DNA of 64,000 nucleotides. Source: Lathyrus oleraceus. Its lineage: Eukaryota; Streptophyta; Magnoliopsida; Fabales; Fabaceae. Numbering within the stretch: position 1 is the first letter of the stretch; each line of letters begins with the position of its first letter. Shown one piece after another: positions 39,377-61,831 of this stretch. The stretch lies in contig NC_066584.1 in NCBI RefSeq assembly GCF_024323335.1, positions 433,405,408-433,469,407 on the forward strand. The letters run 5' to 3'. The notes beneath the pieces were generated by a model, which saw nothing but the letters and a program-made list of their open reading frames with translations, ran no database searches and was not told the origin of the DNA. The position numbers and the translations under genes were made by a program.

Positions 39377-40387
39377 TGTCGCATCACGCGAAAAACCGAC
39401 GGGAAAACAAGAACAACAGAGCCGCCACCGTGCGTTATTTATCCCAAAAGAGGGAAAGGAAACGCTCAGAGTAAACCTGGAAAGAACATGGTCTCGCGAC
39501 CAAAGAGAATGGGTTCGGGAGTCGGTTATGCGAAGGGAAGGTATTAGCACCCCTACGCATCCGTCGTACTCGACGGGATCCACGCACAATAGGAAGGAAA
39601 ATGGTTGCTAAAACACTGCTCAAACTCACACACACTGGCTGAAAGAGACACAAGAAAACAAACTGAAACTGACTCGGCAGGATATCGTATCCTGGGCCTA
39701 CTTAGTCTATCAGGCATAGACATCAGAGTCGAAGTAGTTCGGACTGGGGAAACAACACATGCTCGCTAGGATATCGCATCCTATGCATACGTATCTTCTC
39801 GGACGAGAGAAGAATCAGAGCATTCGTAGCTCGGCTGACACGCACACAAACAAACACAGGCAAAGGCAAACATGGAGCCTGAATGCCAATCACTGGACTT
39901 ACATCAGCATCCGAACCAGAACACACACAAGAAGGCAAACATGGAGCCTAAATGCCAATCACTGGACTTACATCAGCATCCGAACCGAAACACACACAAA
40001 CACTGGAACCCGAATGCCACTCGATGGACTTACATCAGCTTCCAAGCACACAACAACATAACAAGTTAATAGGGAGTCGGGGACTCGAGCCTATAACTGT
40101 CAAGCACACACTCAAACAAACAGACAACAAATTGCTAAGGAGTCAGGCACTCGAGCCTAGCAACTGTCAAACAACACACAAAAAGAAAAAAGGCGCCCGG
40201 AGAGATCAGCTCAATCTCCTGCCTACATACTTCATCTGGTATGAAGATCAGGGCGATGTAGTTCCCCTACAGAGGGATAAAGGACTAGCCTAACCAGATA
40301 ACAGAGGGAGACATAACACTAGGGAGACTACGACTCGAGCCTAGATGTTATCATGCAAATCATCCCTAAGTTAAGGCTTCTAGCTAA

Positions 40388-40536
40388 CTGGCACAGGGAG
40401 CCAGACTATCCTAATCATGACTTGCACAGGAAGCAAGCCACACACACACTTAACTTGCACAAGAAGCAAGCCAAGCAAAACCTAACTTGCACAGGAAGCA
40501 AGTCTAAACTAACCCTAACTTGCACAGGAAGCAAGT
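40388..40536. repeat. Five variable-stem hairpins with ACAGGAA loop (element B 3' LTR)
   Basis: One unit is CTGGC/GCCAG around ACAGGGA (40388-40404). Four are CTTGC/GCAAG around ACAGGAA or ACAAGAA, starting at 40421, 40454, 40486 and 40519; in the last two the stem extends to ACTTGC/GCAAGT. The 5' LTR has the same set at 57848-57996. Confidence 0.8.
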
Positions 40537-42097
40537 CAAACAAACACACAAGCACAGATAGCACACACTATACACAAGCAAGTGGCTCAAACAAGGGTTA
40601 GGTTTTAGTCGAGGGGTCATATCAACCTCAACAAGCAAACCTCTGGAACGGGGTAAATGTGCTCTTAACCTTACCATTGAGGGGCTAAGGTGAAGCAGAT
40701 GAAAGGTGAGTGAAGATAAGACTTCACAGCTCTTATCCCTGGCCTGGGAGAGCTTAAGACAAGAATGTGTGGGTTCAGAAAGTGGGAACCCTTCTACACA
40801 TTTGATACTGACTCAACTGTGCAATTGCACAAGATCTTGGGTGTTTATCTGTAATGCATCAACACAGTGGTGTGAGCAAAGCAGATGACACACTGAATAG
40901 CAGGGGATAGATTGCATATCCCTTGGGTTCTGCCAATTGCCTCTTCACTTAGGAGGTCTTTGACTCTATGCAAGGACAAAAGTAAACAGTCACAAACATT
41001 GCCTCTTAAGGAGGACTTCAGACAGTTGCCTGGCCAAGTAACAGACCAGGTCTTCCAGACTACATGAAGATTAGAAGCATACCTCAATGCAAATTTCTTA
41101 TACAAGCAAAGCAAAGCAAAAGTTCACAAGGAACTGAGCAACTAAAGTACCTGAAACAGTCAAGCACAGTTAGTATACAAGCCAAAGTTAAATCAGAAGG
41201 AAACAAAGGTTAACAGTCAGCACAAGCAGATAAATGTGCAAGGCACAAGGTTCAGGGCATGTGAGCCAAGCCACCTACAAAACAAAGAGGTTAGCTCATG
41301 ATAATCAAATGAACTCAATCAAATTGTAGTGATCTCTTTGAAGCATTTGTAGCTTAACCTGAAAACATGAACTCAAACATAAGTCACAGGACCACTAGGA
41401 CAAGCCTAGGGTCAAAAATGAATGAGAAAGTCAAAACAGCAAAGGGCAAGCATCCAAAATCATGTTCAAACAATTAAGAAACACAACCAATTGGGTTCAC
41501 ATTCATATCAATCATCATCATCATTTCATGAGCAAATTAGGTCAAGGCATAGCAAACAGAAGCTCATAGAAGTCAACAGCAAGACTTAACTCAAAAGCAA
41601 TCTTAAACATTTCCAAAAATCACCAAGTAAATCATGGTCAATCACAATCCATAGCATGGTATGCATGTCAAATTTCATCTCATTTGGACAAGTGGAAGGA
41701 AGTCAATGAATATCAGAAAGTCAAAGCAATTTTGAACATGCTCAAAGAAGTCAACCAAACATGCATCAACTTAGAAAAATCATAAATCAGAGATGGTGTA
41801 TGATAAATGAATGGGACTAAAACCATGGCAAATATGAGGATGTCTAGTTATCTCATGTAAAATTTCATGTCCATCTAATAAAGTATGAGAATTTCAAAAA
41901 TGAAATGGGAACATGTGTCACAAAAAGTCAACATTTGACTATGCAGGGGAGAAAATCTCAAACAATTAGGAAATGCCTCAAATAATTCCAGGAAAATTCA
42001 CATGTAAACTAGACATACAAGAGTAGGTTCATGCAAGAAATCAATCCATTGGAGGTCAAGAAGCATGGTATCAAAAATCATGAAGTTGGACATCAAA

Positions 42098-42120
42098 GGT
42101 GTGACACAAATTGTCACACC
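42098..42120 (-). other. LTR hairpin GGTGTGACA/TGTCACACC (element B 3' LTR)
   Basis: Nine-base arms pair perfectly around CAAAT. The other LTR has it at 59559-59581. Related hairpins lie in A (15477) and C (33242). Confidence 0.75.
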
Positions 42121-44498
42121 CTACTTCAAAAATTCATAACTCTCAAACCACATAAGATAAATTCACAAACTCTACACCAAAATCACCATGAATGTGTCTA
42201 GTTTAAGCACAAAAAATTTGGGTGCCATTGGGTAAAGCATCATCATTTCACAAATGTTTTGGCAAAGTGTACAAAATATGCATACATGTCACAAACCCTC
42301 ATACAAATTAAAATCCATTGATCACAAAATTCTGGAAAAATTATGATAAAAAAGTAGAGATCATGATGAAGATGATGCAAAAAATCCCATTAAATTTGGA
42401 TTAAAATTGGAGATGTTATGATTTTTGTAAGTTGGTGATCAAAAATGGAATAAAATGAAAAACAACATGAGTTTAATAGGTCATGTGCCACGACCGGTGG
42501 CATTTTTGTAATTCCTTGGACTTTTTAATGAAACGTGGCGTTGCGTTTACAGGCGTGGCGAGATGCTAGTGGTCCATGCTAATCCAACAGAACAAAAACC
42601 ATGCAGTAACGTACAAACAAAATCTGGAAAAATGGTTTTTTAGGGTTTCCAATGAACAGTAAACTCCATCTTCCTCCTTCAATCGTGATTTTTCAAAATG
42701 CCCAGAAATCTCAATTGAACACACACAAATGATCATCAAGCAACACACATCAACATTCCAAACTCCATTTTCATTAAATCAAGTTAAACAAAAAGAAATA
42801 AGCAAAAACAAGTTTGAATCATCCACATTCATTTCAACATAACTCAACCATTACTCAACCATTTTTCATGATGTAAAGCTTATTGGAATCAGCACATCAA
42901 GACCTACACTAAGCACGTCATAGTTTTAAAAAAGGTTGAGGTCGAAAACTCACCTAAGTTGAAGAACAGTCGTGGTACAGTGGTTTTTTGATGTTGTTGA
43001 TTCGAAACAGATGAAGCAAGGCCCTCCAAATGATGATTGGTGAAGAAAGCTTGGTTCAAAACAACTTGCAATGGCTTAAAACAAACTCTGCCATGGATGA
43101 TGTCTCTTTAAAATAGCAGTGGAAAAGGAGCTTCCAGTTGGAAAAATATAGTTGCAACAGGTCCACAATGTTGCTTGGATGTTGTTTTAGGCAAGGCAAG
43201 GCTTAGTCTCTTGGAAGTTTTTGACAGACTTTGAGAAATGCACAAAAAATGAGTTTTTAGAATGAGTGAGGTTCTGTTGGTTTGTGGCTGCTAGTTGGGC
43301 TCTCATTTGACAGAAAATGATGTTAATTTCTGCTGTTTTGTGGTTGCTTGTGGAGTGCTCAACATGGTTCATGAAAATGTGGAGTAAAGTTGTTGAAAGT
43401 TGTACTTTTCTTCCAATTTTCAAGCAAGTTAGCATGGGCTATGTGTACTGCACGAATTTGACTTTGTAACATGACCAAAACCACATTTCTGAACTATTTC
43501 AATTGGCCAAATGGTTAAAAGATGATTATTTTGAAAAGTCAAAATTCAACTCACTTGAAATTAATTAAGGCAAGTTCAAAAATGCCATTTTGCATGGTGA
43601 AGTTTTGGTGAATGAAAGTTACATTTTTGGAAAGAGGGGATCAAATGTGACTTGTAGGAAAAAACCCCACCCAAATTGGCCAAATGGTTTGAGAGATATG
43701 GCCTTTTGAAGTTCAAGAATTTTTGAAAACGATTCGATCATAACTTGCCAACCATACATGGGAATTGAGTGTTCTTGGACTTTTTGGAAATGGGAGAACA
43801 AGATCTTCAACTTTCATGTTGGGCAAAAATTCATTTGAATCTTGTATCATGATGTAAGTTTGAGGATCAAGACTTTCCATTTTTGGTAAGTTTCAGTTAC
43901 AGGTCCAGTTTCCATTTTTGGAAATTTCTGATCTGGCTTCAAATTCTTCCATGATGGTGTTTGCCATGATATATGAGGACTATATGGACATGAATGAGAC
44001 CTCTCAAACCAATTTCCATCATCAAATCACTGATTAAATGGACAGTTGACCAACAGTTGACTTTTAGGGTTTCTGACTGATTGTGCATTGACTGATGACT
44101 TCTGAACATCCAATCCTTGACCTAAACTTTTCAAATGGACCCCCAAGTTATGTGAACATGTTGGACCAACCCTAGGGCCTTGGCTCAATGGAATTTGTAC
44201 TTGCTTGCTTGACTGACTGATCTCCTGACCAGTTTGACCTAATTTCTTGATTGGCTTGCACTTGAGGCAAATGGGACAATGCAATGCTATGCAGTGGACC
44301 ATGATATGCTATGACCTAATATGAAAATGTATGTATAACGATAGGTGCAAATTTGAGGTGCTACAGCTGCCCCTATTCAATCAGCTGGGAACCCGAACGG
44401 ATGATAGCGACGGCTGTCAGACTTTCAGGGTAAACAGGGATTGAATACCAAGAACCGTAGAAATTTGCACTCTGCCGGATATGATACAAGAAGAACCA

Positions 44499-45489
44499 CG
44501 TCATTTACCGATGACGCCTGCCATTGACAACTTCAGAAAAGCGAAACCATTTACCGATGGTTAGAAACTGGTAACTTGATATTTACCGATATCAACTTCA
44601 GCAAGACCATTTACCGATGGCTGTTGGGAAACAAATCTGATGTAAAAGGAGGCAAAACCATTTACCGATGGCGGCTTCAAAGAAACTTGACATTTACCGA
44701 TATCAACTCCAACTTGACCATTTACCGATGGCTACTGCAACTGGGGATCCGATATTTACCGATATCGAAGCATACGGGGCCATTTACCGATGGCGTCTCC
44801 ACTTGAGGAGGAACAAAATCTTTGTGGTGTAATCAGACAAGACGTTTACTGACGACTTCTGGGGATCTTGATTTTATCAACAAGGAAACAAAGCATGACC
44901 AGACATTTACCGATGACTGGGATGAGACTCGACGTTTACCGACATCGAAAGATGATGTTTACCGACATCAAAACAAACGACCAGACATTTACCGATGACC
45001 GGGGAACACCTTACTAAGGAAAAAACGAAAATTTGCAACTGGAAACCAGATAGGACATTTACCGATGACTCTACTGGGGATTTCTAGCTGGGGATTATCA
45101 GACATTTACCGACGACTGCAGAAAAGACTCGATGTTTACCGACATCGAAAGATGATGTTTACCGACATCAAAAATGAAATGACCAGACATTTACTGATGA
45201 CTGGGGAGAAAACCCGATGTTTACAGACACCGAAACAATGGTGTTTACCGACACCAACAATAATGATGACCAGACATTTACTGATGACTGGGGAGAAAAC
45301 CCGATGTTTACAGACACCAAAATAATGATGACCAGACATTTACTGATGACTGGGGAGAAAACCCGATGTTTACAGACACCGAAACAATGGTGTTTACAGA
45401 CACCACCAATGATGACCAGACATTTACTGATGACTGGAGAGAAAACCCGATGTTTACAGACACCGAAACAATGGTGTTTACCGACACCA
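44499..45489 (-). repeat. Mini-hairpin array with constant TTACCG loop and changing stems (about 29 units)
   Basis: On the plus strand the six-base loop TTACCG (variants TTACTG, TTACAG) repeats about 29 times, each flanked by complementary arms. Perfect examples are CGTCAT/ATGACG (44499-44516), AACCAT/ATGGTT (44545-44562), TTGATAT/ATATCAA (44576-44595), CGATAT/ATATCG (44750-44767), TCGATGT/ACATCGA (45129-45148) and TGGTGT/ACACCA (45239-45256). A frequent unit, CCAGACAT/ATGACTGG, has one mismatch in eight pairs. From 45180 a longer repeat of three stem types with loop variants appears. Confidence 0.92.
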
Positions 45490-45557
45490 AACAAAGAAAC
45501 ACACGCGGGTGCTAGCATGACACCTACCGGTATCTTAGATATGTCAAGGCAAGGTTG

Positions 45558-46160
45558 ACCACTTGCTGGGGATCTCACTGGGGAGAAACAAACTTTCTGT
45601 CACCAACGGGTGAAGTAATAAACTTCTGTGGGGATATCAACCCTGAATGCTATTAAGAGCAACTGTAGCAGACTTGCTGTGCTGATGTTGAATGAAATGA
45701 TCCGCCTCTGCCGGGGATACGGTCTGATTGGGTTAACACATGAATGCATATGTTTGAATTTTTCTATGGCGTAATGCTCCATATTGAATGGGAATGCTAC
45801 GCAGTTTGAGGATGCAATGATCACTAAAATGCAAAAATGCAAAAATGATGAAGAACTCCGGCTGGGGAGCCAAAACTGATCGGGTACTCTGACTCTGTGG
45901 GGAGACTCCTCTTGGGGAAATACCCTGCGGGGAACTCTGCTTGGGGAATGGTAAACTCCGCTGGGGATATCCTTCAGTCCACAGATAGGATAAATGTTGG
46001 AGATAAATTTCAATGAGACGGCCTCACTCGGGGAGGAAATCGGCAAATACAGGCCTGCTGGGGATGGGCAATCCTATAGATCTGTTGGGGAATAGAAGGC
46101 ACTATCCACAGACGTCTCCGCAGGGGAACATAGCTCTGATAGCTTCCAAACTTGCTTGGG
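45558..46160 (-). repeat. Cluster of PBS-complementary motifs (element B)
   Basis: More than ten copies of a motif near CTGCTGGGGA lie on the plus strand, exact at 46055-46064 and with one or two changes elsewhere (for example 45563, 45861, 45951). The element's PBS on the minus strand ends in the same ten bases. A few more copies lie inside the hairpin array (about 44741, 44861, 45075, 45090). Confidence 0.7.
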
Positions 46161-46899: not shown

Positions 46900-49800
46900 T
46901 TATGCGAAGTATTTTTTGACTACATCTGAGTTGACAGGAGACGGAAAATCTTCACCATCCATAGTTGTAAGCATCAAGGCTCCACCGGAGAATACCTTCT
47001 TCACAACATATGGACCTTCATAATTAGGGGTCCACTTGCCCCTGTTATCTGCACCGGGAGGGAGGATCCTCTTCAAAACTAGATCACCGATCTGATAGCT
47101 TCGAGGACGCACTTTCTGATCAAAGGCTCGCTTCATCCTTCGCTGATACAACTGTCCATGACATACAGCTGCTAGCCGTCTTTCTTCGATAAGGCTCAAC
47201 TCGTTAAACCTTGTTCGAATCCACTCGGCTTCGTCCAGCTTGACATCCAATAAAACTCTCAGAGAAGGAATCTCCACTTCAACAGGTAGGACAGCTTCCA
47301 TACCATACACAAGGGAATAAGGGGTTGCCCCGGTCGACGTACGTACTGAGGTACGGTACCCATGCAAAGCGAAAGGCAGCATCTCATGCCAATCCTTGTA
47401 CGTAACGACCATCTTCTGCACAATCTTCTTGATATTCTTGTTTGCCGCTTCTACAGCACCATTCATCTTTGGTCTGTAAGGAGAAGAATTGTGATGTTCA
47501 ATCTTGAAATCTTTACAAAGCTCTTTCATCATTTTGTTGTTGAGATTTGAGCCATTGTCAGTGATGATTCTCTCAGGAACTCCATAACGACATATGATTT
47601 CTTTCTTGATGAACCGGGTAACCACTTGTTTGGTAACGTTAGCATAGGAAGCTGCTTCCACCCATTTGGTGAAATAGTCAATCGCTACCAAAATGAAGCG
47701 ATGTCCATTCGAAGCAGTGGGCTCAATCTTCCCAATCATATCAATGCCCCACATGGCAAACGGCCAAGGCGAATTCATGACATTCAGAGGGCTTGGTGGT
47801 ACATGCACCTTATCGGCATAGATTTGACACTTATGGCACTTCCGAGCATACTTGAAACAATCGGATTCCATAGTCATCCAGTAATAACCCGCTCTCAACA
47901 ATTTCTTAGCCATTGCATGTCCGCCGGCATGAGTACCGAAGGAACCTTCATGAACTTCCTGCATTAACATGTCTGCCTCGGGTCTGTCCACGCATCTGAG
48001 CAAGACCATGTCAAAGTTTCTCTTATACAGCACATCATCCTGATTCAAATAGAAGCTTCCAGCTAGCCTTCTCAGGGTTTTCTTGTCATTCTTCGACGCA
48101 CCTTCAGGATACTCCTGAGTCTTGAGGAAGTTCTTGATGTCATAATACCACGGCTTCTCATCACCCACAACAGACTCGGCTGCAAACACATACGCAGGCC
48201 TCTCGAGTCGATTCACCGCAACATGTGGCACATGATTCCACCAATGAACTTTGATCATAGATGACAAGGTCGCCAAAGCATCGGCCATCTGATTCTCATC
48301 CCGGGGGACATGATACAACTTCACCTTCTTGAAGAACGTCAGTATTCTTCTGGTGTAATCTCTATACGGAATCAAATGCGGCTGATTCGTATTCCAATCT
48401 CCATTGACTTGATTGATCACTAGAGCGGAATCTCCATAAATGTCAAGCGTTTTGATCCTCAGATCAATGGCTTCTTCTATCCCCATGATACAAGCCTCAT
48501 ACTCAGCCTCATTGTTGGTGACGTCAAACGTCAATCTGGCAGAAAAAGGTATATGAGCACCTTTAGGATTGATCAAAACTGCCCCAACACCGTTACCATT
48601 CATATTCACAGCCCCATCAAACATCAGTGTCCATTTGTCATCCGGATCCGGTCCTTCCTCGACAAGAGGCTCTTCACAATCTTTCATTTTAAGATACATG
48701 ATGTCTTCATCAGGGAATTCAAACATCATAGGCTGATAATCTTCAATCGGTTGCTCGGCGAGGTAGTCTGACAGAATACTACCTTTGATGGCCTTTTGTG
48801 ACGTGTACTGAATATCATATTCTGTTAAGATCATCTGCCAACGGGCAACACGTCCGGTGAGAGCTGGTTTCTCAAAGATGTACTTCACTGGATCCATCTT
48901 AGAAATCAATAAGGTAGTATGGTTCAACATATACTGCCTCAGTCGGCGAGCAGCCCAGGCCAAAGCACAGCAAGTTTTCTCGAGCAGTGAATATCTTGTT
49001 TCACAGTCGGTAAACTTTTTGCTAAGGTAGTATATGGCATGCTCTTTTCGACCAGACTCGTCATGCTGTCCCAATACACACCCCATCGAGTTCTCAGTCA
49101 CTGACAGGTACATTATCAGAGGTCTCCCTGGAACTGGAGGTATAAGGATTGGAGGTTTCTGTAAATACTCTTTAATCTTGTCAAAAGCCTTCTGACAATC
49201 ATCATTCCACTTGATCGCCTGATTTTTTCTGAGCAGTTTGAAAATTGGTTCGCACGTGGCTGTTAGATGAGATATGAACCTTGCAATGTAGTTCAACCTC
49301 CCTAAAAACCCACGGACTTGTTTCTCCGTTTTCGGTTCAGGCATCTCTTGGATAGCTTTGACTTTCGCTGGATCAACCTCAATCCCTTTCTCACTGACAA
49401 TGAAGCCTAAAAGCTTCCCTGATCTCACCCCAAACGTACACTTGTTCGGATTCAACCTCAGCTTGAACTTTCTCAACCGATCAAACAGCTTCTGCAAATT
49501 AACCAAGTGCTCCTCTTCTGTCTGCGACTTCGCAATCATATCATCTACGTACACTTCAATTTCTTTGTGCATCATGTCATGAAAAAGAGTCGTCATTGCC
49601 CTCTGATAGGTAGCACCAGCATTCTTTAGCCCAAATGGCATCACCTTATAGCAGAACGTGCCCCAAGGTGTAATGAATGTCGTCTTTTCCATGTCTTCTG
49701 GCGCCATCTTGATCTGGTTATATCCGGAGAAACCATCCATGAAATAGAATACCGAGGATTGAGCCGTATTATCAACCAATACATCAATGTGAGGTAATGG

Positions 49801-50367
49801 GAAATCATCTTTCGGACTCGCTCTATTCAAATCCCGGTAATCGACACACATTCTGACTTTACCATCCTTCTTCGGCACAGGAACGATGTTGGCCACCCAT
49901 GGGGGATAACTTGTAACAGCCAAAAAACCCGCATCCCATTGCTTCTGAACCTCTTCCTTGATCTTAGTTGCCATGTCAGGACTCGTTCTACGAAGCTTCT
50001 GCTTGACCGAAGGACATCCTTCTCTGAGAGGTAATCGATGCACCACAATATCTGTATCTAACCCAGGCATATCTTGATATGACCAGGCGAATATCTCCAC
50101 ATATTCTCTCAGCATCTCAGTCAGCCTCCTCTTGACAGAGTCCTCTAAAGCAACCCCAATCTTGATTTCTCTTTTGGCGTCCTCAGTACCCAAATTAACA
50201 ACCTCCAACTCCTCCTGATGAGGTTGGATGACCCTTTCCTCCTGCTTCAGCAATCTGACCAATTCTGCAGGGAGTTCACAGTCTTCCTCACTCTCCTCTT
50301 CAGCTTGGTAGATGGGATTGTCGAAATCATACTGAGCCATAACAGAACTGTTCATAGTGAATGCCAT
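46900..50367 (-). CDS. Element B pol: reverse transcriptase, two RNase H domains, integrase (1155 aa)
   Basis: The frame is fully open. An acidic linker (DFDNPIYQAEEESEED) is followed by reverse transcriptase at about residues 100-340, with the palm motif MDGFSGYNQI near 210 and YVDDM at 273-277. The linked RNase H spans about 370-530. A second, archaeal-type RNase H follows at about 575-705, with FDG at 583-585, NEAEYEA near 620 and YGDSA near 645. Integrase spans about 800-1090: zinc residues H806 or H813, H817, C844 and C847, and the triad D876, D937, E973 with exact D,D35E spacing. No chromodomain follows. Expression probably needs the intron at 50378-50628 to be removed, so the ATG at 50367 may not be the real start; the exon would open at 50377. 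Confidence 0.95.
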   Translation of the reverse strand: MAFTMNSSVMAQYDFDNPIYQAEEESEEDCELPAELVRLLKQEERVIQPHQEELEVVNLGTEDAKREIKIGVALEDSVKRRLTEMLREYVEIFAWSYQDMPGLDTDIVVHRLPLREGCPSVKQKLRRTSPDMATKIKEEVQKQWDAGFLAVTSYPPWVANIVPVPKKDGKVRMCVDYRDLNRASPKDDFPLPHIDVLVDNTAQSSVFYFMDGFSGYNQIKMAPEDMEKTTFITPWGTFCYKVMPFGLKNAGATYQRAMTTLFHDMMHKEIEVYVDDMIAKSQTEEEHLVNLQKLFDRLRKFKLRLNPNKCTFGVRSGKLLGFIVSEKGIEVDPAKVKAIQEMPEPKTEKQVRGFLGRLNYIARFISHLTATCEPIFKLLRKNQAIKWNDDCQKAFDKIKEYLQKPPILIPPVPGRPLIMYLSVTENSMGCVLGQHDESGRKEHAIYYLSKKFTDCETRYSLLEKTCCALAWAARRLRQYMLNHTTLLISKMDPVKYIFEKPALTGRVARWQMILTEYDIQYTSQKAIKGSILSDYLAEQPIEDYQPMMFEFPDEDIMYLKMKDCEEPLVEEGPDPDDKWTLMFDGAVNMNGNGVGAVLINPKGAHIPFSARLTFDVTNNEAEYEACIMGIEEAIDLRIKTLDIYGDSALVINQVNGDWNTNQPHLIPYRDYTRRILTFFKKVKLYHVPRDENQMADALATLSSMIKVHWWNHVPHVAVNRLERPAYVFAAESVVGDEKPWYYDIKNFLKTQEYPEGASKNDKKTLRRLAGSFYLNQDDVLYKRNFDMVLLRCVDRPEADMLMQEVHEGSFGTHAGGHAMAKKLLRAGYYWMTMESDCFKYARKCHKCQIYADKVHVPPSPLNVMNSPWPFAMWGIDMIGKIEPTASNGHRFILVAIDYFTKWVEAASYANVTKQVVTRFIKKEIICRYGVPERIITDNGSNLNNKMMKELCKDFKIEHHNSSPYRPKMNGAVEAANKNIKKIVQKMVVTYKDWHEMLPFALHGYRTSVRTSTGATPYSLVYGMEAVLPVEVEIPSLRVLLDVKLDEAEWIRTRFNELSLIEERRLAAVCHGQLYQRRMKRAFDQKVRPRSYQIGDLVLKRILPPGADNRGKWTPNYEGPYVVKKVFSGGALMLTTMDGEDFPSPVNSDVVKKYFA

Positions 50368-50377
50368 AAGATCGCTT

Positions 50378-50628
50378 CTGCATGTTTAATGCTTTGTTTT
50401 AGAAAAAGAGTTCAATAAAGTCACAAAAAACAAAAACATTGCCATTTTTATTGTTTTGAAAAAAGATGAAAACAAAAAATAGAAAGACAGGGATCACAAA
50501 GTTTGATTTCAAAAAATGTCCTTCATTAATGATAATCATTAAAACATGATGAGGCCCTACAATGAATCACTACGCCTTGGGCAGATCGTAGGATTTTCAT
50601 GCAAAATGACAAAACAAAAGAAAATTAC
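50378..50628 (-). other. Predicted Ogre intron between protease and RT (element B, 251 nt)
   Basis: Intron start GTAATT at 50628 overlaps the gag-protease stop (50625-50627). The end, ATGCAG, lies at 50378. The sequence between is T-rich in element sense. The exon before ends with two bases of a codon and the exon after begins with its third base, so splicing would remove the stop and join both frames. Element A has the same sites and phase. An intron here is an established Ogre feature; these exact borders are my inference. Confidence 0.75.
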
Positions 50629-53615
50629 TCTGTCAGAAGAGTAACTTGAACCACTTCTTCAGCCGTCCAGTTGTTGATAGACCCCCCTGGTGCACACGGG
50701 CGAACCCAGTTGTCCAGATCACAATCACTGTCACAGTCTTCACTACCGGTTGCAGAGACGTCGCCATGATTCATCAGCCCAGCGCTGGTAAAGGTACTCG
50801 GACCCGCTTGACCATTCTGCTCTACTTGGAGAGGCTCATAACCAACGCCAAATTTGTCTTCTTTAACTGGCAAGTCCACCATCTTGCCCCAGCCTTCAGC
50901 TTTGCCAGAATCAACAACCTCCTTAGCCTGCTTGTAAGAAGTAATTGAAGCACCTGGCTTCCTCTGCTCAGCGTACGCCACTTTCTCAAGAGCCATAGTC
51001 TCAAACGCCTGGCATAAGGTTTCGTGGATCTCGCCATCCACCTCAACATATTTGAACGAGGATAGGTGACTCACCAGAATCTCTTCTTCACCGCACACAG
51101 TCACAATCTGACCGTTCCAGACATACTTGAGCTTTTGATGGAGAGTCGACGAGACTGCCCCTGCTGCATGAATCCATGGACGCCCCAATAAACAACTATA
51201 GGCGGGCTGGATGTCCATAACATAGAAGATGACATCGAATACCTCAGGACCTATCTTCACAGGCAAGGTAACTTCCCCACACACAGAACGTTTGGATCCG
51301 TCGAAAGCACGAACGATCAGGTCACTGGGAGTAAGCACAAACCCTTCCACATCAATCTTCTTCAGAATCTGCTTAGGCAGCACATTCAGCGACGACCCGG
51401 TGTCTACCAATACGTGAGACAACACTGCCCCCTTGCACTTCATGGTGATGTGCAAGGCTTTGTTATGGTTCCGCCCTTCAGGCGGTAAGTCCAGGTTGGT
51501 GAATCCTACACCATGCCTGGTGCTCACATTGGCCATCACACCCTCCAGTTGATTGACAGAAATCTCCTGAGGCACGTAATCCAGATTCAACATCTTCAGC
51601 AAAGCATTACGGTGTGCCTCAGAGCACAACAACAGTGAAAGTATAGAAATCTTGGACGGAGTTTGGTTCAACTGATCTACAATCTTGTAGTCACTCTTCT
51701 TGATTATCTTCATAAACTCCTCCACGTCCTTCTCAAATGACCCCTCGGGCGCTTCCTTCTGGACAGGTTCTTCCTCAACCACAGCTTGCTTACCCTTTGC
51801 TTTGGCGAGAGCCTCAGCATTATTGTCCCTCAAAGGTTGCGGTGCGAACAGACGACCGCTTCTGGTAAAACCTCCTGGACCTCCTACATTATCCACAACC
51901 GGACCAACAGTTGCAGGAACTCTATTCGGTAAACCAATTGTCACTGGAGTTTGATTCACTGGTCTCGTCTGACTTTCAGCCCTTCTGTAACTGCGGTGAG
52001 CATTATCATACTTCCACGGCACGGCTCTACTATTCTCAACAGCCCTTCTTCCAGATGCGGCGATAGTAGTTGGAGCACTGATGGTTACAGGCACGGAAAT
52101 GGTAACTGGGGTACCATTCGTTGCAGGTGCACTAACGACCCTTTGTCCACGTTCTTCAGACGGTTTAAAGTAAATGGTGATAGTTGACACTGTCCCACGA
52201 TCTTTTACGGCCCTACTGAATTGCAAACAACCCTCATCCATCATACCCTGGATACCGGCCCTTAACTGGTCGCAACCATTCTCAGATTCTGCACAGCCCA
52301 AACAATCCTCATCACAGCCCGAGTAGACACCCCCATTCAGCAGACGGCCCTTCACAACTAGCAGAGAAGTCTGAACATCATCAACATTAACAACCAGATC
52401 TTCAGCTTCTTTCCCCTCAATATTGTTCACTCTATGCCCACCATGCTGAGGCATAGGGTTGTTTACGACGTTAGGCACTGGAGCGAAGTTGATCGCCTTG
52501 GCATCGATCAAATCTTGGACCTTGTGCTGGAGAGCCCGACACTTCTCAGTATGATGCCCTGGTGCCCCAGAGTGAAAGTCACAACGGACGTTGGCATCGT
52601 ACCCAGGAGGTAATACTGTAGGCGGAGCCATTGTACGCAACTCAACCATCCCCAACCTGAGTAGTTCGGGCAGCAGTTCGGCGTACGACATGGGTAGCGA
52701 ATCAAAACGTCGATCAGGCATCCTTTGTCTGGGCTGATACGGACGTTGCTGTTGTTGTTGTTGTTGTTGTTGCGGTTGTTGAACTCTTTGTTGTTGTTGT
52801 TGACGAGGTTGAGGTGCCGGAATGGTTACTGCAGCAGCTTGACGGTATTCAATTCTGTTCTGATCTCTGCGGTGTTGAACAGCATTAGTTTCACCCTCTC
52901 TTCGACGAGGTGCCCCAGCAAACGGCTTCTTAGAAGAAGAGGAACCAGCATCTTGGATCTTCCCAGTTTTAATCAAGCTCTCAGTCCTCTCTCCACAAAT
53001 GACAACATCAGAAAAACTACCGAATGGGCAGCTCCCCATCCGGTCCATAAATACACCTTGAAGAGTACCGATAAACATATCTGTCAACTCCCTCTCCAGC
53101 ATAGGGGGTTGAACTCTAGCAGCCAATTCACGCCACCTCTGGGCGTACTCCTTGAAGCTTTCGTTGGATTTCTGACACAGGCTCTGCAGCTGAGTCCGGC
53201 TCGGTGCCATGTCCATGTTGTGTTTGTATTGCCTCAAAAAGGCCTCACCCAGATCCCTCCAACAGCGGATAGAATCTCTCTTTAATTCCATGTACCAGTC
53301 CAAAGAAGCCCCAGATAGACTATCTTGGAAAAAATACATCCACATCTTTTCATCATCGGTATACGCAGAGATTTTTCGATAATAAGCCTGCACATGGGTG
53401 CGAGGGCAAGAAGTACCGTTGTATTTATCGAAGGACGGTGCTTTGAACTTGTAAGGGATTCTCAAACCTTCCACCAACCCCATATTGGTAACATCAAAAC
53501 CGAGAGAATTCTGACATTCCATAGCTCTAATTTTCTCAGCAAGGGCATCAACTTTACGATCCCTCTCATTAACCCTTCCCAGAACGTCTTCGTCTTCACT
53601 GAGCAGAGAAAACAT
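50625..53615 (-). CDS. Element B gag-protease, main part (996 aa)
   Basis: The frame continues from the N-terminal gag piece across one TAA. It opens with the capsid region (residues about 10-190: ALAEKIRAMECQNS, YFFQDSLSGASLDWYMEL, YAQRWRELAARVQPP). A polyglutamine tract follows near 270-295. A knuckle of the unusual form CX2HX5HX4C (CDFHSGAPGHHTEKC) lies near 340. The aspartic protease is near 690-850 with VDTGSSLNVLP at about 737 and LLGRPWIHAAGAV. The tail is acidic and ends at the predicted splice donor. Gag forms the particle, and the protease would process it. The ATG at 53615 is simply the first after the stop. Confidence 0.93.
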   Translation of the reverse strand: MFSLLSEDEDVLGRVNERDRKVDALAEKIRAMECQNSLGFDVTNMGLVEGLRIPYKFKAPSFDKYNGTSCPRTHVQAYYRKISAYTDDEKMWMYFFQDSLSGASLDWYMELKRDSIRCWRDLGEAFLRQYKHNMDMAPSRTQLQSLCQKSNESFKEYAQRWRELAARVQPPMLERELTDMFIGTLQGVFMDRMGSCPFGSFSDVVICGERTESLIKTGKIQDAGSSSSKKPFAGAPRRREGETNAVQHRRDQNRIEYRQAAAVTIPAPQPRQQQQQRVQQPQQQQQQQQQRPYQPRQRMPDRRFDSLPMSYAELLPELLRLGMVELRTMAPPTVLPPGYDANVRCDFHSGAPGHHTEKCRALQHKVQDLIDAKAINFAPVPNVVNNPMPQHGGHRVNNIEGKEAEDLVVNVDDVQTSLLVVKGRLLNGGVYSGCDEDCLGCAESENGCDQLRAGIQGMMDEGCLQFSRAVKDRGTVSTITIYFKPSEERGQRVVSAPATNGTPVTISVPVTISAPTTIAASGRRAVENSRAVPWKYDNAHRSYRRAESQTRPVNQTPVTIGLPNRVPATVGPVVDNVGGPGGFTRSGRLFAPQPLRDNNAEALAKAKGKQAVVEEEPVQKEAPEGSFEKDVEEFMKIIKKSDYKIVDQLNQTPSKISILSLLLCSEAHRNALLKMLNLDYVPQEISVNQLEGVMANVSTRHGVGFTNLDLPPEGRNHNKALHITMKCKGAVLSHVLVDTGSSLNVLPKQILKKIDVEGFVLTPSDLIVRAFDGSKRSVCGEVTLPVKIGPEVFDVIFYVMDIQPAYSCLLGRPWIHAAGAVSSTLHQKLKYVWNGQIVTVCGEEEILVSHLSSFKYVEVDGEIHETLCQAFETMALEKVAYAEQRKPGASITSYKQAKEVVDSGKAEGWGKMVDLPVKEDKFGVGYEPLQVEQNGQAGPSTFTSAGLMNHGDVSATGSEDCDSDCDLDNWVRPCAPGGSINNWTAEEVVQVTLLTE

Positions 53616-54361: not shown

Positions 54362-56002
54362 CTAAGACAAACGGCCTCCCGGAATGAGAGTCTTCAAGTA
54401 CTGACACTGGTCTATCAACAGGTCACATTCTGAACATTCTGGCAAAAGAGTGATCTTCTCCTTCAGTTGTCGTCTAAGCTCTACCACTTCTCCTCCAAGG
54501 TGGTTCTCTGATGCCTGTCTCAAGTCTACTTCCTTCTTCAACTGGACGTCTTTATCTCTGAGCTGCTTCTCCAAGTCTCCGATCTTCTTCTGATAGCTGG
54601 CCTCAGCTCTCTGCAGCCTCAAGCACTCCCGGTGTTCTGCATCTAACATGCTCTCCACCTCCTCGTAGGATCTCTTCTTGCTTCTTAGTCTGCTAGCATC
54701 TTCTTCTCGCACTCCTCTGAGTAGATGAGCCAAGTTCAAACTATCAGCTTTGGCTTTGTACAACTCCATCTGGGTATCTTGCTCCTTCTCTCTCAAACGA
54801 CGATTCTCCATCAAGGCTTGCTTGTAGTGCTCCGCAGGCACACTCTCTGCAAGGATCAAAGGTGGTTGCTCCTGCAACGGCTCCATCCTGTCGTAGGGTA
54901 ACAACAAAGTTTCTACTCTCTCCTTGACCCAATCAGTGTAATCAGGCATAGCAACGGCAAACTTCTTCCCTAAGACAGATCCATCCTTCACACCAATAGA
55001 CTTCCAAGCTCTCCCTATCTGCTCCAATCTAGCCGGGTCACTCTGCTTCTCAAAATACACACTTTCAGCTACCTCAGCCTCAAGTGGTCTTCCCTTCATC
55101 ACAAACCCCAACTGGCGAAGAGAAAGAACCGGGTTGTAATTGATGCAACCCCTAGTCCCTACGAGTGGCACATTACGGAATCCTCCACAGCTCATAATGA
55201 CGTTACGCACATCCATCCGGTAAGATTGCCACCTGATATCATAGGAAGTAAGAGACATAACCCTCTGAGTCCACTTATGCGTGCTCTGAGCATCCACAAA
55301 AGGTCCACTGACTGGCAGGAGAGACAAGAACCATCTGAGCAAAAGCGGGAGACAACACCTGATAGCCCCACCCTTACCATGCCTACTGTGAATAGCATAG
55401 TAAGTGTCAGCTAATAGAGTAGGAACTGGATTTCCTCCAATGAAAATACTGACTGCAGCATAGTCAACAAAATTGGGCATACTCGGAAACAGGACGATCC
55501 CATAGATCATGACGGCCAACTGAGCATGAAAGGCTTCCCAACTTCCCTTCTCTGCTTCTTCTCTAGCTACCCTCAACAGAAACTTCAAAGGCAATCCTAC
55601 AACATCCCCACTGGACTTCCAACTATCACTGACTTCCTTGATACCCAAATGGAGAGCTCTGGCAACAACTCTGAAATCAACCTCCTTGGGCACATCCAAG
55701 AAAGGAACCTGATACCGGACCGGGACACTCAGCAGAATGGAGTACTCCTCAAGAGTAGGCGCCAACTGATAATCTTGAAAGGTGAAACAATGAAGCTCTG
55801 GGTCGTAGAACTGTAGAAGAGTCTGCAACGGCACCGGATCGACTACCATCTTCAACAGTGTCAGAACACCTCCATACTGGTCAACAAACCCCTTCTGGTT
55901 ACCACTGGTCATAAGGTTGCTCAACTCAATCAGAGACGTCAAAGGTTCACGGTGAAAGCTGTAGGAACAAGTCTTCCGCTTCAACTCTGGGACTGTTGCC
56001 AT
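54362..56002 (-). CDS. Element B ORF1 protein (546 aa, function unknown)
   Basis: The frame is open. I chose the ATG at 56002 (MATVPELKRK): the 49 codons before it are a lysine-rich low-complexity run with no counterpart in C. The globular part, about residues 20-350, includes LLQFYDPELHCFTFQDYQL, APTLEEYSILLSVPVRYQVPF, NPVPTLLADTYYAIHSRHGKG and FRNVPLVGTRGCINYNPVLSLRQLGF, shared with A and C. The C-terminal 150 residues are a long coiled coil (E, K, R, Q, L rich) that probably drives self-association. No catalytic motif is seen. It resembles the family I recall as DUF7745; role unknown. It is longer than the 482-residue copy in C mainly in the coiled coil. Confidence 0.88.
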   Translation of the reverse strand: MATVPELKRKTCSYSFHREPLTSLIELSNLMTSGNQKGFVDQYGGVLTLLKMVVDPVPLQTLLQFYDPELHCFTFQDYQLAPTLEEYSILLSVPVRYQVPFLDVPKEVDFRVVARALHLGIKEVSDSWKSSGDVVGLPLKFLLRVAREEAEKGSWEAFHAQLAVMIYGIVLFPSMPNFVDYAAVSIFIGGNPVPTLLADTYYAIHSRHGKGGAIRCCLPLLLRWFLSLLPVSGPFVDAQSTHKWTQRVMSLTSYDIRWQSYRMDVRNVIMSCGGFRNVPLVGTRGCINYNPVLSLRQLGFVMKGRPLEAEVAESVYFEKQSDPARLEQIGRAWKSIGVKDGSVLGKKFAVAMPDYTDWVKERVETLLLPYDRMEPLQEQPPLILAESVPAEHYKQALMENRRLREKEQDTQMELYKAKADSLNLAHLLRGVREEDASRLRSKKRSYEEVESMLDAEHRECLRLQRAEASYQKKIGDLEKQLRDKDVQLKKEVDLRQASENHLGGEVVELRRQLKEKITLLPECSECDLLIDQCQYLKTLIPGGRLS

Positions 56003-56815
56003 CTCTATCAGTGAACAAGCTCTGGAATGTACCTGAGAAATGATATGCATGCAGGGATTAGTTTTTTTTGTTTTCTTTTTCCCCTTTTCTCTTTTTTTTG
56101 TATCTTTTTTATTGCGTTTCTTTTGAAAAATAAATATGCTATGATGCAAATGATGCAGACACGACTGGTTGGCTGTGTCCCTCGGAACACAGGATCAAAG
56201 CTTCGGCTTGAACTCGGAACCACAAATTCATCTGAAACCCAAAGTCATCTGAGACCCCAAAATTCTGAACCAATAGTCACCAACAGGATCACAAGTCACC
56301 AACAAGTCACCAACAAGTCACCAACTGTACCTGTAATAATGGTCATTCCCTCCCCACTCACGGGTGTCATCTAGGCCAGGGTAAGGTCGAGAGAAACGCA
56401 GCATAAATAACCTTTCGCAGAATATCATCATATACACACCCGAAGTATGTAACGATAACATCCCACCAGGGTCTGAACTGCTCGTGATATCAATGTTCCG
56501 CTAAGTGGCGCAATACCACCCGCTTCACATGAATCACTCTATTCCTAAGTATCCTAGATTTCACTCATGGCCTGGGTATTGGGCCTTTTACCTCATGTAA
56601 CTCCCACCCCTCAGAGAGAAACAGACAACCAGCCAGATGAATAATGAATGTGAATGAATGCAAACATAAGTGCAAACATAAACGCAAACAATAAATGCAC
56701 ATATATACAAATGAATGCAATAAATAACAGCACAAAGCAACCAAAGCCCTAACCTAGAGAGCGCTAGGAGAGACTCGCTTAGGGAAGATGGACCAGCATA
56801 GGTCAACTTCTCTAT
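56003..56815 (-). other. Element B leader between PBS and ORF1
   Basis: This 0.8-kb leader has no gene. It contains a poly-T run near 56060-56100 (plus strand), a short run of CACCAACAAGT repeats near 56280-56325 and ATGAATGCAAA-type repeats near 56640-56730. Confidence 0.6.
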
Positions 56816-56833
56816 TCCCCAGCAGAGTCGCCA
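56816..56833 (-). other. Primer-binding site of element B
   Basis: The minus strand reads TGGCGACTCTGCTGGGGA two bases inside the 5' LTR, the same as in A and C. Confidence 0.92.
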
Positions 56834-56835: not shown

Positions 56836-59800
56836 TGTCGCATCACGCGAAAAACCGGCGGGAAAACAAGAACAACAGAGCCGCCACCGTGCGTTATTTA
56901 TCCCAAAAGAGGGAAAGGAAACGCTCAGAGTAAACCTGGAAAGAACATGGTCTCGCGACCAAAGAGAATGGGTTCCGGAGTCGGTTATGCGAAGGGAAGG
57001 TATTAGCACCCCTACGCATCCGTCGTACTCGACGGGATCCACGCACAATAGGAAGGAAAATGGTTGCTAAAACACTGCTCAAACTCACACACACTGGCTG
57101 AAAGAGACACAAGAAAACAAACTGAAACTGACTCGGCAGGATATCGTATCCTGGGCCTACTTAGTCTATCAGGCATAGACATCAGAGTCGAAGTAGTTCG
57201 GACTGGGGAAACAACACATGCTCGCTAGGATATCGCATCCTATGCATACGTATCTTCTCGGACGAGAGAAGAATCAGAGCATTCGTAGCTCGGCTGACAC
57301 GCACACAAACAAACACAGGCAAAGGCAAACATGGAGCCTGAATGCCAATCACTGGACTTACATCAGCATCCGAACCAGAACACACACAAGAAGGCAAACA
57401 TGGAGCCTAAATGCCAATCACTGGACTTACATCAGCATCCGAACCGAAACACACACAAACACTGGAACCCGAATGCCACTCGATGGACTTACATCAGCTT
57501 CCAAGCACACAACAACATAACAAGTTAATAGGGAGTCGGGGACTCGAGCCTATAACTGTCAAGCACACACTCAAACAAACAGACAACAAATTGCTAAGGA
57601 GTCAGGCACTCGAGCCTAGCAACTGTCAAACAACACACAAAAAGAAAAAAAGGCGCCCGGAGAGATCAGCTCAATCTCCTGCCTACATACTTCATTTGGT
57701 ATGAAGATCAGGGCGATGTAGTTCCCCTACAGAGGGATAAAGGACTAGCCTAACCAGATAACAGAGGGAGACATAACACTAGGGAGACTACGACTCGAGC
57801 CTAGATGTTATCATGCAAATCATCCCTAAGTTAAGGCTTCTAGCTAACTGGCACAGGGAGCCAGACTATCCTAATCATGACTTGCACAGAAAGCAAGCCA
57901 CACACACACTTAACTTGCACAGGAAGCAAGCCAAGCAAAACCTAACTTGCACAGGAAGCAAGTCTAAACTAACCCTAACTTGCACAGGAAGCAAGTCAAA
58001 CAAACACACAAGCACAGATAGCACACACTATACACAAGCAAGTGGCTCAAACAAGGGTTAGGTTTTAGTCGAGGGGTCATATCAACCTCAACAAACAAAC
58101 CTCTGGAACGGGGTAAATGTGCTCTTAACCTTACCATTGAGGGGCTAAGGTGAAGCAGATGAAAGGTGAGTGAAGATAAGACTTCACAGCTCTTATCCCT
58201 GGCCTGGGAGAGCTTAAGACAAGAATGTGTGGGTTCAGAAAGTGGGAACCCTTCTACACATTTGATACTGACTCAACTGTGCAATTGCACAAGATCTTGG
58301 GTGTTTATCTGTAATGCATCAACACAGTGGTGTGAGCAAAGCCAGATGACACACTGAATAGCAGGGGATAGATTGCATATCCCTTGGGTTCTGCCAATTG
58401 CCTCTTCACTTAGGAGGTCTTTGACTCTATGCAAGGACAAAAGTAAACAGTCACAAACATTGCCTCTTAAGGAGGACTTCAGACAGTTGCCTGGCCAAGT
58501 AACAGACCAGGTCTTCCAGACTACATGAAGATTAGAAGCATACCTCAATGCAAATTGCTTATACAAGCAAAGCAAAGCAAAAGTTCACAAGGAACTGAGC
58601 AACTAAAGTACCTGAAACAGTCAAGCACAGTTAGTATACAAGCCAAAGTTAAATCAGAAGGAAACAAAGGTTAACAGTCAGCACAAGCAGATAAATGTGC
58701 AAGGCACAAGGTTCAGGGCATGTGAGCCAAGCCACCTACAAAACAAAGAGGTTAGCTCATGATAATCAAATGAACTCAATCAAATTGTAGTGATCTCTTT
58801 GAAGCATTTGTAGCTTAACCTGAAAACATGAACTCAAACATAAGTCACAGGACTACTAGGACAAGCCTAGGGTCAAAAATGAATGAGAAAGTCAAAACAG
58901 CAAAGGGCAAGCATCCAAAATCATGTTCAAACAATTAAGAAACACAACCAATTGGGTTCACATTCATATCAATCATCATCATCATTTCATGAGCAAATTA
59001 GGTCAAGGCATAGCAAACAGAAGCTCATAGAAGTCAACAGCAAGACTTAACTCAAAAGCAATCTTAAACATTTCCAAAAATCACCAAGTAAATCATGGTC
59101 AATCATAATCCATATCATGGTATGCATGTCAAATTTCATCTCATTTGGACAAGTGGAAGGCAGTCAATGAATATCAGAAAGTCAAAGCAATTTTGAACAT
59201 GCTCAAAGAAGTCAACCAAACATGCATCAACTTAGAAAAATCATAAATCAGAGATGGTGTATGATAAATGAATGGGACTAAAACCATGGCAAAGATGAGG
59301 ATGTCTAGTTATCTCATGTAAAATTTCATGTCCATCTAATAAAGTATGAGAATTTCACAAATGAAATGGGAACATGTGTCACAAAAAGTCAACATTTGAC
59401 TAAGCAGGGGAGAAAATCTCAAACAATTAGGAAATGCCTCAAATAATTCCAGGAAAATTCACATGTAAACTAGACATACAAGAGTAGGTTCATGCAAGAA
59501 ATCAATCCATTGGAGGTCAAGAAGCATGGTATCAAAAATCATGAAGTTGGACATCAAAGGTGTGACACAAATTGTCACACCCTACTTCAAAAATTCATAA
59601 CTCTCAAACCACATAAGATAAATTCACAAACTCTACACCAAAATCACCATGAATGTGTCTAGTTTAAGCACAAAAAATTTGGGTGCCATTGGGTAAAGCA
59701 TCATCATTTCACAAATGTTTTGGCAAAGTGTACAAAATATGCATACATGTCACAAACCCTCATACAAATTAAAATCCATTGATCACAAAATTCTGGAAAA

Positions 59801-61826
59801 ATTATGATAAAAAAGTAGAGATCATGATGAAGATGATGCAAAAAATCCCATTAAATTTGGATTAAAATTGGAGATGTTATGATTTTTGTAAGTTGGTGAT
59901 CAAAAATGGAATAAAATGAAAAACAACATGAGTTTAATAGGTCATGTGCCACGACCGGTGGCATTTTTGTAATTCCTTGGACTTTTTAATGAAACGCGGC
60001 GTTGCGTTTACAGGCGTGGCGAGATGCTAGTGGTCCATGCTAATCCAACAGAACAAAAACCATGCAGTAACGTACAAACAAAATCTGGAAAAATGGTTTT
60101 TTAGGGTTTCCAATGAACAGTAAACTCCATCTTCCTCCTTCAATCGTGATTTTTCAAAATGCCCAGAAATCTCAATTGAACACACACAAATGATCATCAA
60201 GCAACACACATCAACATTCCAAACTCCATTTTCATTAAATCAAGTTAAACAAAAAGAAATAAGCAAAAACAAGTTTGAATCATCCACATTCATTTCAACA
60301 TAACTCAACCATTACTCAACCATTTTTCATGATGTAAAGCTTATTGGAATCAGCACATCAAGACCTACACTAAGCACGTCATAGTTTTAAAAAAGGTTGA
60401 GGTCGAAAACTCACCTAAGTTGAAGAACAGTCGTGGTACAGTGGTTTTTTGATGTTGTTGATTCGAAACAGATGAAGCAAGGCCCTCCAAATGATGATTG
60501 GTGAAGAAAGCTTGGTTCAAAACAACTTGCAATGGCTTAAAACAAACTTTGCCATGGATGATGTCTCTTTAAAACAGCAGTGGAAAAGGAGCTTCCAGTT
60601 GGAAAAATATAGTTGCAACAGGTCCACAATGTTGCTTGGATGTTGTTTTAGGCAAGGCAAGGCTTAGTCTCTTGGAAGTTTTTGACAGACTTTGAGAAAT
60701 GCACAAAAAATGAGTTTTTAGAATGAGTGAGGTTCTGTTGGTTTGTGGCTGCTAGTTGGGCTCTCATTTGACAGAAAATGATGTTAATTTCTGCTGTTTT
60801 GTGGTTGCTTATGGAGTGCTCAACATGGTTCATGAAAATGTGGAGTAAAGTTGTTGAAAGTTGTACTTTTCTTCCAATTTTCAAGCAAGTTAGCATGGGC
60901 TATGTGTACTGCACGAATTTGACTTTGTAACATGACCAAAACCACATTTCTGAACTATTTCAATTGGCCAAATGGTTAAAAGATGATTATTTTGAAAAGT
61001 CAAAATTCAACTCACTTGAAATTAATTAAGGCAAGTTCAAAAATGCCATTTTGCATGGTGAAGTTTTGGTGAATGAAAGTTACATTTTTGGAAAGAGGGG
61101 ATCAAATGTGACTTGTAGGAAAAAACCCCACCCAAATTGGCCAAATGGTTTGAGAGATATGGCCTTTTGAAGTTCAAGAATTTTTGAAAACGATTCGATC
61201 ATAACTTGCCAACCATACATGGGAATTGAGTGTTCTTGGACTTTTTGGAAATGGGAGAACAAGATCTTCAACTTTCATGTTGGGCAAAAATTCATTTGAA
61301 GCTTGTATCATGATGTAAGTTTGAGGATCAAGACTTTCCATTTTTGGTAAGTTTCAGTTACAGGTCCAGTTTCCATTTTTGGAAATTTCTGATCTGGCTT
61401 CAAATTCTTCCATGATGGTGTTTGCCATGATATATGAGGACTATATGGACATGAATGAGACCTCTCAAACCAATTTCCATCATCAAATCACTGATTAAAT
61501 GGACAGTTGACCAACAGTTGACTTTTAGGGTTTCTGACTGATTGTGCATTGACTGATGACTTCTGAACATCCAATCCTTGACCTAAACTTTTCAAATGGA
61601 CCCCCAAGTCATGTGAACATGTTGGACCAACCCTAGGGCCTTGGCTCAATGGAATTTGTACTTGCTTGCTTGACTGACTGATCTCCTGACCAGTTTGACC
61701 TAATTTCTTGATTGGCTTGCACTTGAGGCAAATGGGACAATGCAATGCTATGCAGTGGACCATGATATGCTATGACCTAATATGAAAATGTATGTATAAC
61801 GATAGGTGCAAATTTGAGGTGCTACA
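56836..61826 (-). repeat. Element B 5' LTR (4,991 bp)
   Basis: It runs from TGTAGCACCTC at 61826 (minus strand) to two bases before the PBS. It carries the same hairpins and blocks as the 3' LTR: ACAGGAA-loop hairpins 57848-57996, CCTGGCC/GACCAGG 58490-58511, GGTGTGACA/TGTCACACC 59559-59581, and the GGTATTAGCACCCC block 56994-57013. No gene is seen. The promoter should be in here, but I cannot place a TATA box with confidence. Confidence 0.95.
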
Positions 61827-61831
61827 CTCCT
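61827..61831. other. Target-site duplication of element B, right copy (CTCCT)
   Basis: It is identical to 39372-39376 and directly follows the LTR end. Confidence 0.95.

Follow-up and report, generated by a model that had tools for sequence, protein, structure and literature searches.

We found that the 3' UTR of element B, which judging by its sequence is a young Ogre/Tat LTR retrotransposon in a 64-kb window of pea DNA (the whole stretch analysed), contains an array of mini hairpins in which a near-constant loop sits on varying, paired stems in one orientation; other Ogre copies carry arrays with other loops. The pairing of the arms is well supported, and selection at the RNA level moderately supported. 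In our preferred reading, to which we give an even chance, the array represents short stem-loops kept in Ogre/Tat genomic RNA as repeated, family-specific protein sites, with packaging by Gag as the leading guess. A copying process that rebuilds the arms is the main rival.

The hairpin arrays of elements B and A

Element B lies on the minus strand and runs from 61826 to 39377, as delimited by LTR alignment and by the sequence CTCCT that flanks it at both ends (39372-39376 and 61827-61831). Its aligned LTRs (5' LTR, 56836..61826; 3' LTR, 39377..44365) are 99.56% identical across 4991 positions. Between them, all on the minus strand, we found a putative primer binding site (56816..56833), named by its position adjoining the 5' LTR, an ORF1 with DUF7745 (54362..56149; domain match E 5.9e-115), a gag-protease ORF (50625..53615; protease matches under the Pfam cut-off), a pol ORF that by domain search encodes RT, RNase H, a second RNase H and integrase (46900..50367), and a putative polypurine tract GAATAGGGGCAGC (RNA sense; 44366..44378), also named by its position directly before the 3' LTR. 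An extra ORF upstream of gag, a mark of Ogre, is thus present (54362-56149, DUF7745). So is the additional RNase H domain (aRH) by which the Tat clade is defined in the relevant part of PMC6317226: RT_RNaseH and RVT_3/RNase_H occur in separate stretches of one ORF. The gag-pro and RT-RH-INT ORFs are 257 bp apart (50367 to 50625), a gap that in pea Ogre is an intron with a mean of 274 bp (same part of PMC6317226). By its title, a 2003 paper in the reference list of PMC6317226 reports constitutive transcription of pea Ogre. Finally, there are tandem repeats between pol and the 3' LTR, as expected of a Tat/Ogre 3' UTR.

The array of 29 mini hairpins occupies 44499..45489 on the minus strand. Since this is between pol and the polypurine tract, the initial annotation was right to place it in the 3' UTR of element B, and its estimate of about 29 units agrees with the 29 occurrences of the DNA loop TTAC[CTA]G that we counted at 44499-45489. 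In RNA sense a unit consists of an arm, the six-base loop C[G/A/U]GUAA and a second arm. All six arm pairs named in that annotation were located in the array. Its description of the arms as exact complements holds for 10 of the 29 units when at least six bases are considered (14 units for at least four bases); the rest include G-U or U-U cases. Pairs 1-6 are all Watson-Crick or G-U in 16 units and pairs 1-5 in four, while in the remaining nine pair 4 is an inner U-U, with a second mismatch, at pair 6, in one of them. The loop-closing pair is U-A in every unit. At pair 2 we counted 12 G-C, 16 A-U and one G-U, and at pair 3 12 U-A, 15 C-G and two U-G. The 19 distinct arm pairs comprise 114 cells, of which 96 are Watson-Crick; 10,000 re-pairings gave a mean of 64.6 and a maximum of 83. 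This is in line with the original claim that the stems vary with pairing retained.

Half of the array (45093..45494, minus strand) has clear higher-order repeats of 62-87 bp with two or three hairpins each (TRF periods 62, 84 and 87). At matching places of these repeats, a correspondence inferred from the order of the units, the stem is UGAUGU/ACAUCA in some units and UGGUGU/ACACCA in others, with both sides altered. The neighbouring stem is either CGAUGU/ACAUCG or CGGUGU/ACAUCG, the latter being a G-U half-way state.

When the 64 kb were scanned for one loop combined with several stems, array B ranked first with five distinct stems and the array of a second element, A, ranked second and third (four and three stems). 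The best cluster in each of 20 shuffled windows had two or three stems, so that the third entry shows no excess by itself, and no cluster in the window beyond arrays A and B exceeded the shuffles. Array A (520..985), of which the initial annotation of array B makes no mention, is in the 3' UTR of element A, on the minus strand like element B. Its loop, [A/G]UUCAG and variants, differs from that of array B, and its stems are UGGC/GCCA, CGAC/GUCG, CGAU/AUCG, CGGU/ACCG and CAGU/ACUG; its re-pairing was counted both with and without one hit, at position 552. Two further elements share the window. A copia-like element, judged from its ORFs, spans 23282-30868 on the minus strand with end repeats 92% identical across 838 positions, and the window scan found no hairpin array above shuffles in it. 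Element C, on the plus strand, is apparently interrupted by element B (36315-38774 and 61814-64000); it has an ORF1 with DUF7745 (37326-38774), a gag-like ORF (61814-62995) and a PBS-like sequence at 36315, and its 3' UTR falls beyond the window. Rfam gave no match at gathering score in the window and five loci, the two best matches in the 3' UTR of element B (E 0.76 and 0.97) being below that score. No relatives were found in IMG/VR and GTDB contigs at the sensitivity used.

Pairing in other pea copies

A search of the pea genome (3.795 Gb) with a 21-base polypurine-tract/LTR junction, allowing at most one mismatch, gave 31,815 matches and none for a control pattern. We sampled 60 3' UTRs by this junction alone, blind to hairpins. 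Among the first 100 places listed they are numbers 1-50 and 91-100, and all come from the first 20.5 Mb of contig C1, making this a local and not a genome-wide sample (L031-L060, 1500 bases each; L061-L090, 2200 bases each). In the first 30 loci the best loop was combined with one, two, three, four, five and six distinct stems at 4, 6, 13, 5, 1 and 1 loci, the single-stem cases therefore numbering four; 300 shuffles gave one, two and three stems in 276, 22 and 2 cases.

After viewing the sampled loci we recognised, by eye, five loop classes (CNGUAA, NNYC[A/C]G, AGCCNGA, UGAG and CGUU), which are sequence groupings whose separateness as families is not backed by a tree. At least three paired hairpins with at least two stems of one class are present in 49 of the 60 3' UTRs, and in 0 of 60 in each of 20 rounds of shuffling. 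The design, with this or other loops, is accordingly not special to element B, for which it was first described. The other 11 loci fall below this threshold for all five classes, and several of these carry other repeated hairpins. Pairing exceeds that of re-paired arms in all five classes: four Watson-Crick pairs were counted in 235 of 558, 330 of 969, 50 of 83, 33 of 56 and 100 of 334 occurrences, against re-paired means of 50.5, 42.5, 12.3, 7.2 and 19.3 and maxima of 69, 59, 20, 14 and 31 (200 rounds). When one arm was slid by 1-3 bases, pairing fell clearly in three classes (UGAG, from 0.67 to 0.20-0.30; AGCCNGA, from 0.55 to 0.11-0.21; CNGUAA, from 0.56 to 0.17-0.36). For NNYC[A/C]G (0.325, with values up to 0.291 after sliding) and CGUU (0.557, with 0.473 at -3) this control was weak. 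Paired units are oriented 777:8 sense to antisense overall (by class 235:0, 342:8, 50:0, 36:0 and 114:0) and are located near the 3' LTR. Indeed, at the 30 loci with longer flanks, the best loop had one, two, three and four stems in 6, 15, 5 and 4 loci between -900 and -200, and one or two stems in 24 and 6 loci between -2200 and -1500, where hairpins are sparse.

The stem repertoire is small, each loop class having 5 to 8 four-base stems with perfect pairing; therefore much of each array does arise by duplication and exchange of units, and independent compensations are few. This small number, together with the clear 62-87 bp higher-order units of array B, is what one would expect if ordinary tandem duplication of a few ancestral hairpins had simply passed their pairing on, without any present role. 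We consider this explanation unlikely, given that compensated stems still arose repeatedly, and in five unlike loop classes. UGAG, the cleanest of the five, also speaks against it. All four Watson-Crick pairs are used at pairs 2 and 3 of this class, with 23 of 27 paired at pair 2 (expected 8) and 21 of 27 at pair 3 (expected 7), and its units with different stems mostly have unlike flanks (over 34+34 bases, nine paired units have a mean identity of 0.29 and a maximum of 0.53).

Further copies could be read through database proteins. Array A is open in one reading frame, and with this frame as query 12 proteins were found; a profile search found 35, those 12 included. All 35 contain at least two array motifs. 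The 14 with a named organism are all from pea, and derive from the same pea assembly, so they may overlap the sampled loci. By their sequences, these proteins look like translated hairpin arrays, some of them fused to other pieces. Their codons reveal the bases of the arms, and codons that do not fix a base were set aside. For the A type, over distinct contexts, pair 2 is Watson-Crick in 72 of 74 (expected 42.8) and, in the other frame, in 71 of 83 (44.7), while pair 4 is so in 50 of 58 (27.1 if the arms were independent). Pair 1 is Watson-Crick in 62 of 73 (36.7) after excluding frames that are not hairpins; the tally that includes them is 68 of 89 distinct (44.0). Pair 3 is near constant and gives little information (53 of 58 against 51.2). 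The B type is represented by eight proteins from short ENA and JGI contigs. Here pair 3 is Watson-Crick in 16 of 20 (10.5) and G-U, as read in RNA, in the remaining four. Pair 2 is Watson-Crick in 11 of 12 (6.8) and 4 of 4 (2.5), and pair 4 in 7 of 20 (4.9), with a further eight G-U and five mismatches; the 3 of 3 from another reading of pair 3 carries no information. The initial annotation had named two outcomes that would speak against its claim, namely arms that vary independently in other copies and as many paired units in shuffled sequence. Neither occurred: pairing lies above the expectation from re-pairing or independence, and the shuffles stayed below the first two entries of the window scan and below the count for the 60 loci.

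Several pea 'hypothetical proteins' (e.g. P0002, P0009, P0021, P0022 and P0023) resemble frames through non-coding hairpin arrays, some of them fused to pol or DUF7745 pieces. Pea gene annotation may thus be inflated by array-derived 'hypothetical proteins'.

How the stems change, and at which level

A strand-blind process predicts as many G-U as A-C mispairs. Among distinct five-pair stems with exactly one inner non-Watson-Crick pair we counted 21 G-U, 8 A-C and 21 others. The 21:8 ratio has a one-sided P=0.012, a value that is too small because the distinct forms share ancestry. That G-U outnumbers A-C favours selection in RNA. For the CNGUAA class alone the ratio is 8:6, or 11:8 with six pairs. 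The A-type proteins, with G-U:A-C of 8:3, 6:5, 3:3, 0:2 and 0:1 in distinct contexts and hence no clear G-U excess, speak against the RNA level, as does folding energy, which gives the sense strand no advantage. By prediction the hairpins are weak, with class medians from -2.3 to -5.1 kcal/mol; 19 of the 29 hairpins of array B appear in the local minimum-energy fold and 13 in the global fold. The local z-score is -4.5 in RNA sense versus -5.8 on the antisense strand, and the global fold of array A in RNA sense is not unusual (z 0.1). As the antisense strand is the more unusual, we rejected the argument that folding energy in the sense strand proves a role in RNA. Likewise, G-U asymmetry within the window alone was rejected as evidence, as it involves too few independent events and a biased composition.

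Could the sites be read in DNA instead? The arms are inverted repeats in DNA too, either as a dyad-symmetric site for a dimeric DNA-binding protein or as a cruciform in double-stranded DNA, and folding relative to shuffles is at least as strong on the other strand. A dimer reading half-sites, however, would fix the arms and leave the centre free, which is the opposite of what we found. Moreover, the asymmetric loop points the same way in 777 of the 785 paired units, and the G-U excess also argues against DNA sites. We regard them as very improbable.

Copies of the B array provide a closer look at how stems change. We compared 30 copies, including the window's own (L001), setting aside 23 of 174 pairs whose commonest state is not Watson-Crick; 157 of 174 loop, 318 of 348 stem and 443 of 489 spacer sites were used. 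Variants present in one or two copies include 22 G-U and 22 A-C, the equality that a strand-blind process predicts. Those common to at least three copies comprise four G-U, two A-C (both at the outermost pair), one other single change, three double Watson-Crick changes and one double mismatch. Two of the three double changes belong to one unit, are found in the same seven copies and look like an exchange of the whole unit; the third is found in three copies within about 55 kb of each other. Double changes within B copies thus reduce to about two events. Both routes of stem change, G-U half-way states and whole-unit exchange, do occur. Shared variants are rarer in hairpins, with 25 in 475 loop and stem sites (9 in 157 loop and 16 in 318 stem sites) against 42 in 443 spacer sites (P=0.016), which is unexpected under duplication without a role. 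Singletons, however, number 0.153 per loop site, 0.179 per stem site and 0.190 per spacer site, and once normalised by these the depletion across the 30 copies is not significant (P=0.11).

Alternatively, the copying process itself might make the pairing. During reverse transcription the nascent strand could fold back or switch template at the hairpin, using one arm to rewrite the other (quasi-palindrome correction), and neighbours could swap units; no function would be needed. Repeats and hairpins invite template switching, and in 7 of the 30 B copies (L011-L017) three pairs at one position differ jointly, like a whole-unit exchange. Furthermore, an origin of the Tat 3' UTR repeats by illegitimate recombination or abnormal strand transfer has been hypothesised (PMC7004042, in the part that concerns these repeats). 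What such copying leaves unexplained is a fixed loop with changing stems. The inner U-U is kept in nine of the 29 units of the window, 17 of the 60 loci have one such arm pair and 28 have one G-U form, and mispairs retained across units and loci are therefore not efficiently corrected. Variants in one or two B copies include one double Watson-Crick change versus 58 single changes, although the majority of them probably date from after insertion and are thus poor evidence on reverse transcription. Nor would such copying lead one to expect more G-U than A-C. On balance, we view copying without function as rather unlikely.

Possible function and known systems

Under our preferred reading, that of protein sites kept in genomic RNA, selection would act on the RNA hairpin, through a factor that reads the loop sequence and needs the stem only as a shape. 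A fixed loop on stems whose letters are free would indeed point to a protein that reads the loop, with the stem as mere support. The most likely reader would be one encoded by the element, Gag/nucleocapsid being the first candidate and ORF1 the second, because with a host protein as reader one would expect all elements to have the same loop; as the loops differ between Ogre copies, we infer that the reader differs too, and hence could be the element's own protein. Many weak copies might provide avidity, comparable to viral packaging signals. Duplication and exchange of units, probably via template switching in reverse transcription, would let the array grow and reshuffle, while selection would remove units that are no longer paired. 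We also considered the loops as splice signals, GUAA being the motif of the 5' site and YCAG that of the 3' site, and dropped the idea since the other three loop classes resemble neither motif.

A bolder version, which we put forward tentatively and hold to be rather unlikely as a whole, is a family-specific RNA loop code. Each family would carry its own loop (CNGUAA, NNYC[A/C]G, AGCCNGA, UGAG or CGUU) on interchangeable stems as a multivalent address for its own Gag or ORF1, and would thereby pack or copy its own RNA in competition with the others. Combined with the repeated complements of the primer binding site, this could make the 3' UTR a platform for RNA assembly and end-joining, and the source of satellites would be a functional, selected structure instead of junk. 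We know of no stated reason for the existence of the Tat/Ogre 3' UTR repeats, and covarying hairpins offer a testable one, namely cis-acting RNA sites. If the 60-locus sample is typical, then, considering the 31,815 junction matches, few structured non-coding RNA elements in pea would be commoner than this design. Should it be the element's own proteins that read the loops, the packaging specificity of plant retrotransposons would become open to experiment.

Tandem repeats in Ogre 3' UTRs are known, as the initial annotation stated; those of Tat/Ogre elements are hypervariable and are described as a source of satellites (passages of PMC7004042; for Retand, of PMC11963269). The former cites Macas et al. 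2009 for them. The pea arrays share with them the clade, the place (from pol to the 3' LTR) and the family-specific repeats. In the passages concerned, however, the repeats are tandem monomers varying in sequence, length and number, whereas in pea the repeated thing is a fixed-loop hairpin with covarying stems, and one class is mostly outside tandem repeats. The word 'hairpin' is absent from the text covered of PMC7004042, PMC6317226, PMC2206039 and PMC11963269, a set that excludes Macas et al. 2009; 'palindrom' appears twice in PMC11963269, the context of both places being outside the literature comparison. Within the literature searched, the scope of which leaves out that key 2009 paper, we found no account of retrotransposon arrays with a fixed loop and changing stems. 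The tandem repeats and their link to satellites are therefore known, and fixed-loop arrays with covarying stems are apparently undescribed in those texts.

The nearest working analogue is the packaging signals of RNA viruses. In the sections of PMC6281560 on single-stranded RNA viruses and hepatitis B virus, these are many stem-loops with a short common motif, varying surroundings and varied affinity that act jointly. The pea arrays resemble such dispersed signals in their many stem-loops, common loop motif and varying stems. In contrast, the pea units are concentrated in one 3' UTR, their carrier is a plant retrotransposon and they are known from sequence alone. Nor are they spread along the genome of the element, being sparse at -2200 to -1500 (30 loci), with no other cluster in the window above shuffles. 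The palindromic GC clusters of yeast mitochondria are mobile elements and are also short repeated hairpins with constrained structure; there, according to the portion of PMC4478555 that treats them, it is mostly the loops that vary, on conserved stems, the opposite of pea, where the loop is conserved and the changes are in the stems.

One locus offers food for thought on satellites. In L078 (RNA sense, -1230 to -560 from the polypurine tract) a homogeneous tandem array of about 23 bp alternates two hairpins, with the loops UUGUU and UCUGUCCG in 30 and 26 exact copies. This is possibly a satellite in the making.

A second short motif accompanies the hairpins and is separate from them. Through and beside array B (44741..46091, minus strand) there are 17 copies of UCCCCA, 12 of them UCCCCAG. 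The motif is complementary to the primer binding site GCUGGGGA in its 3' half; in the window its antisense form CTGGGGA is seen at 44741-46091 and 988-1752. As guesses, these copies may help to join the RNA ends, or may stem from copying of the primer tRNA. In Ty3, too, primer binding at the 5' end involves sequences from the 3' part of the element RNA, but there the tRNA binds both parts, whereas the pea UCCCCAG is complementary to the primer binding site itself. Across the 60 3' UTRs (L031-L090) we counted 303 sense copies in 59 loci and no antisense copy, against 19.3 in shuffles. The bases after UCCCCAG tend to extend the complement (CAGAGUC), with a mean of 3.19 matches out of 7 over 241 contexts and 1.75 for permuted targets.
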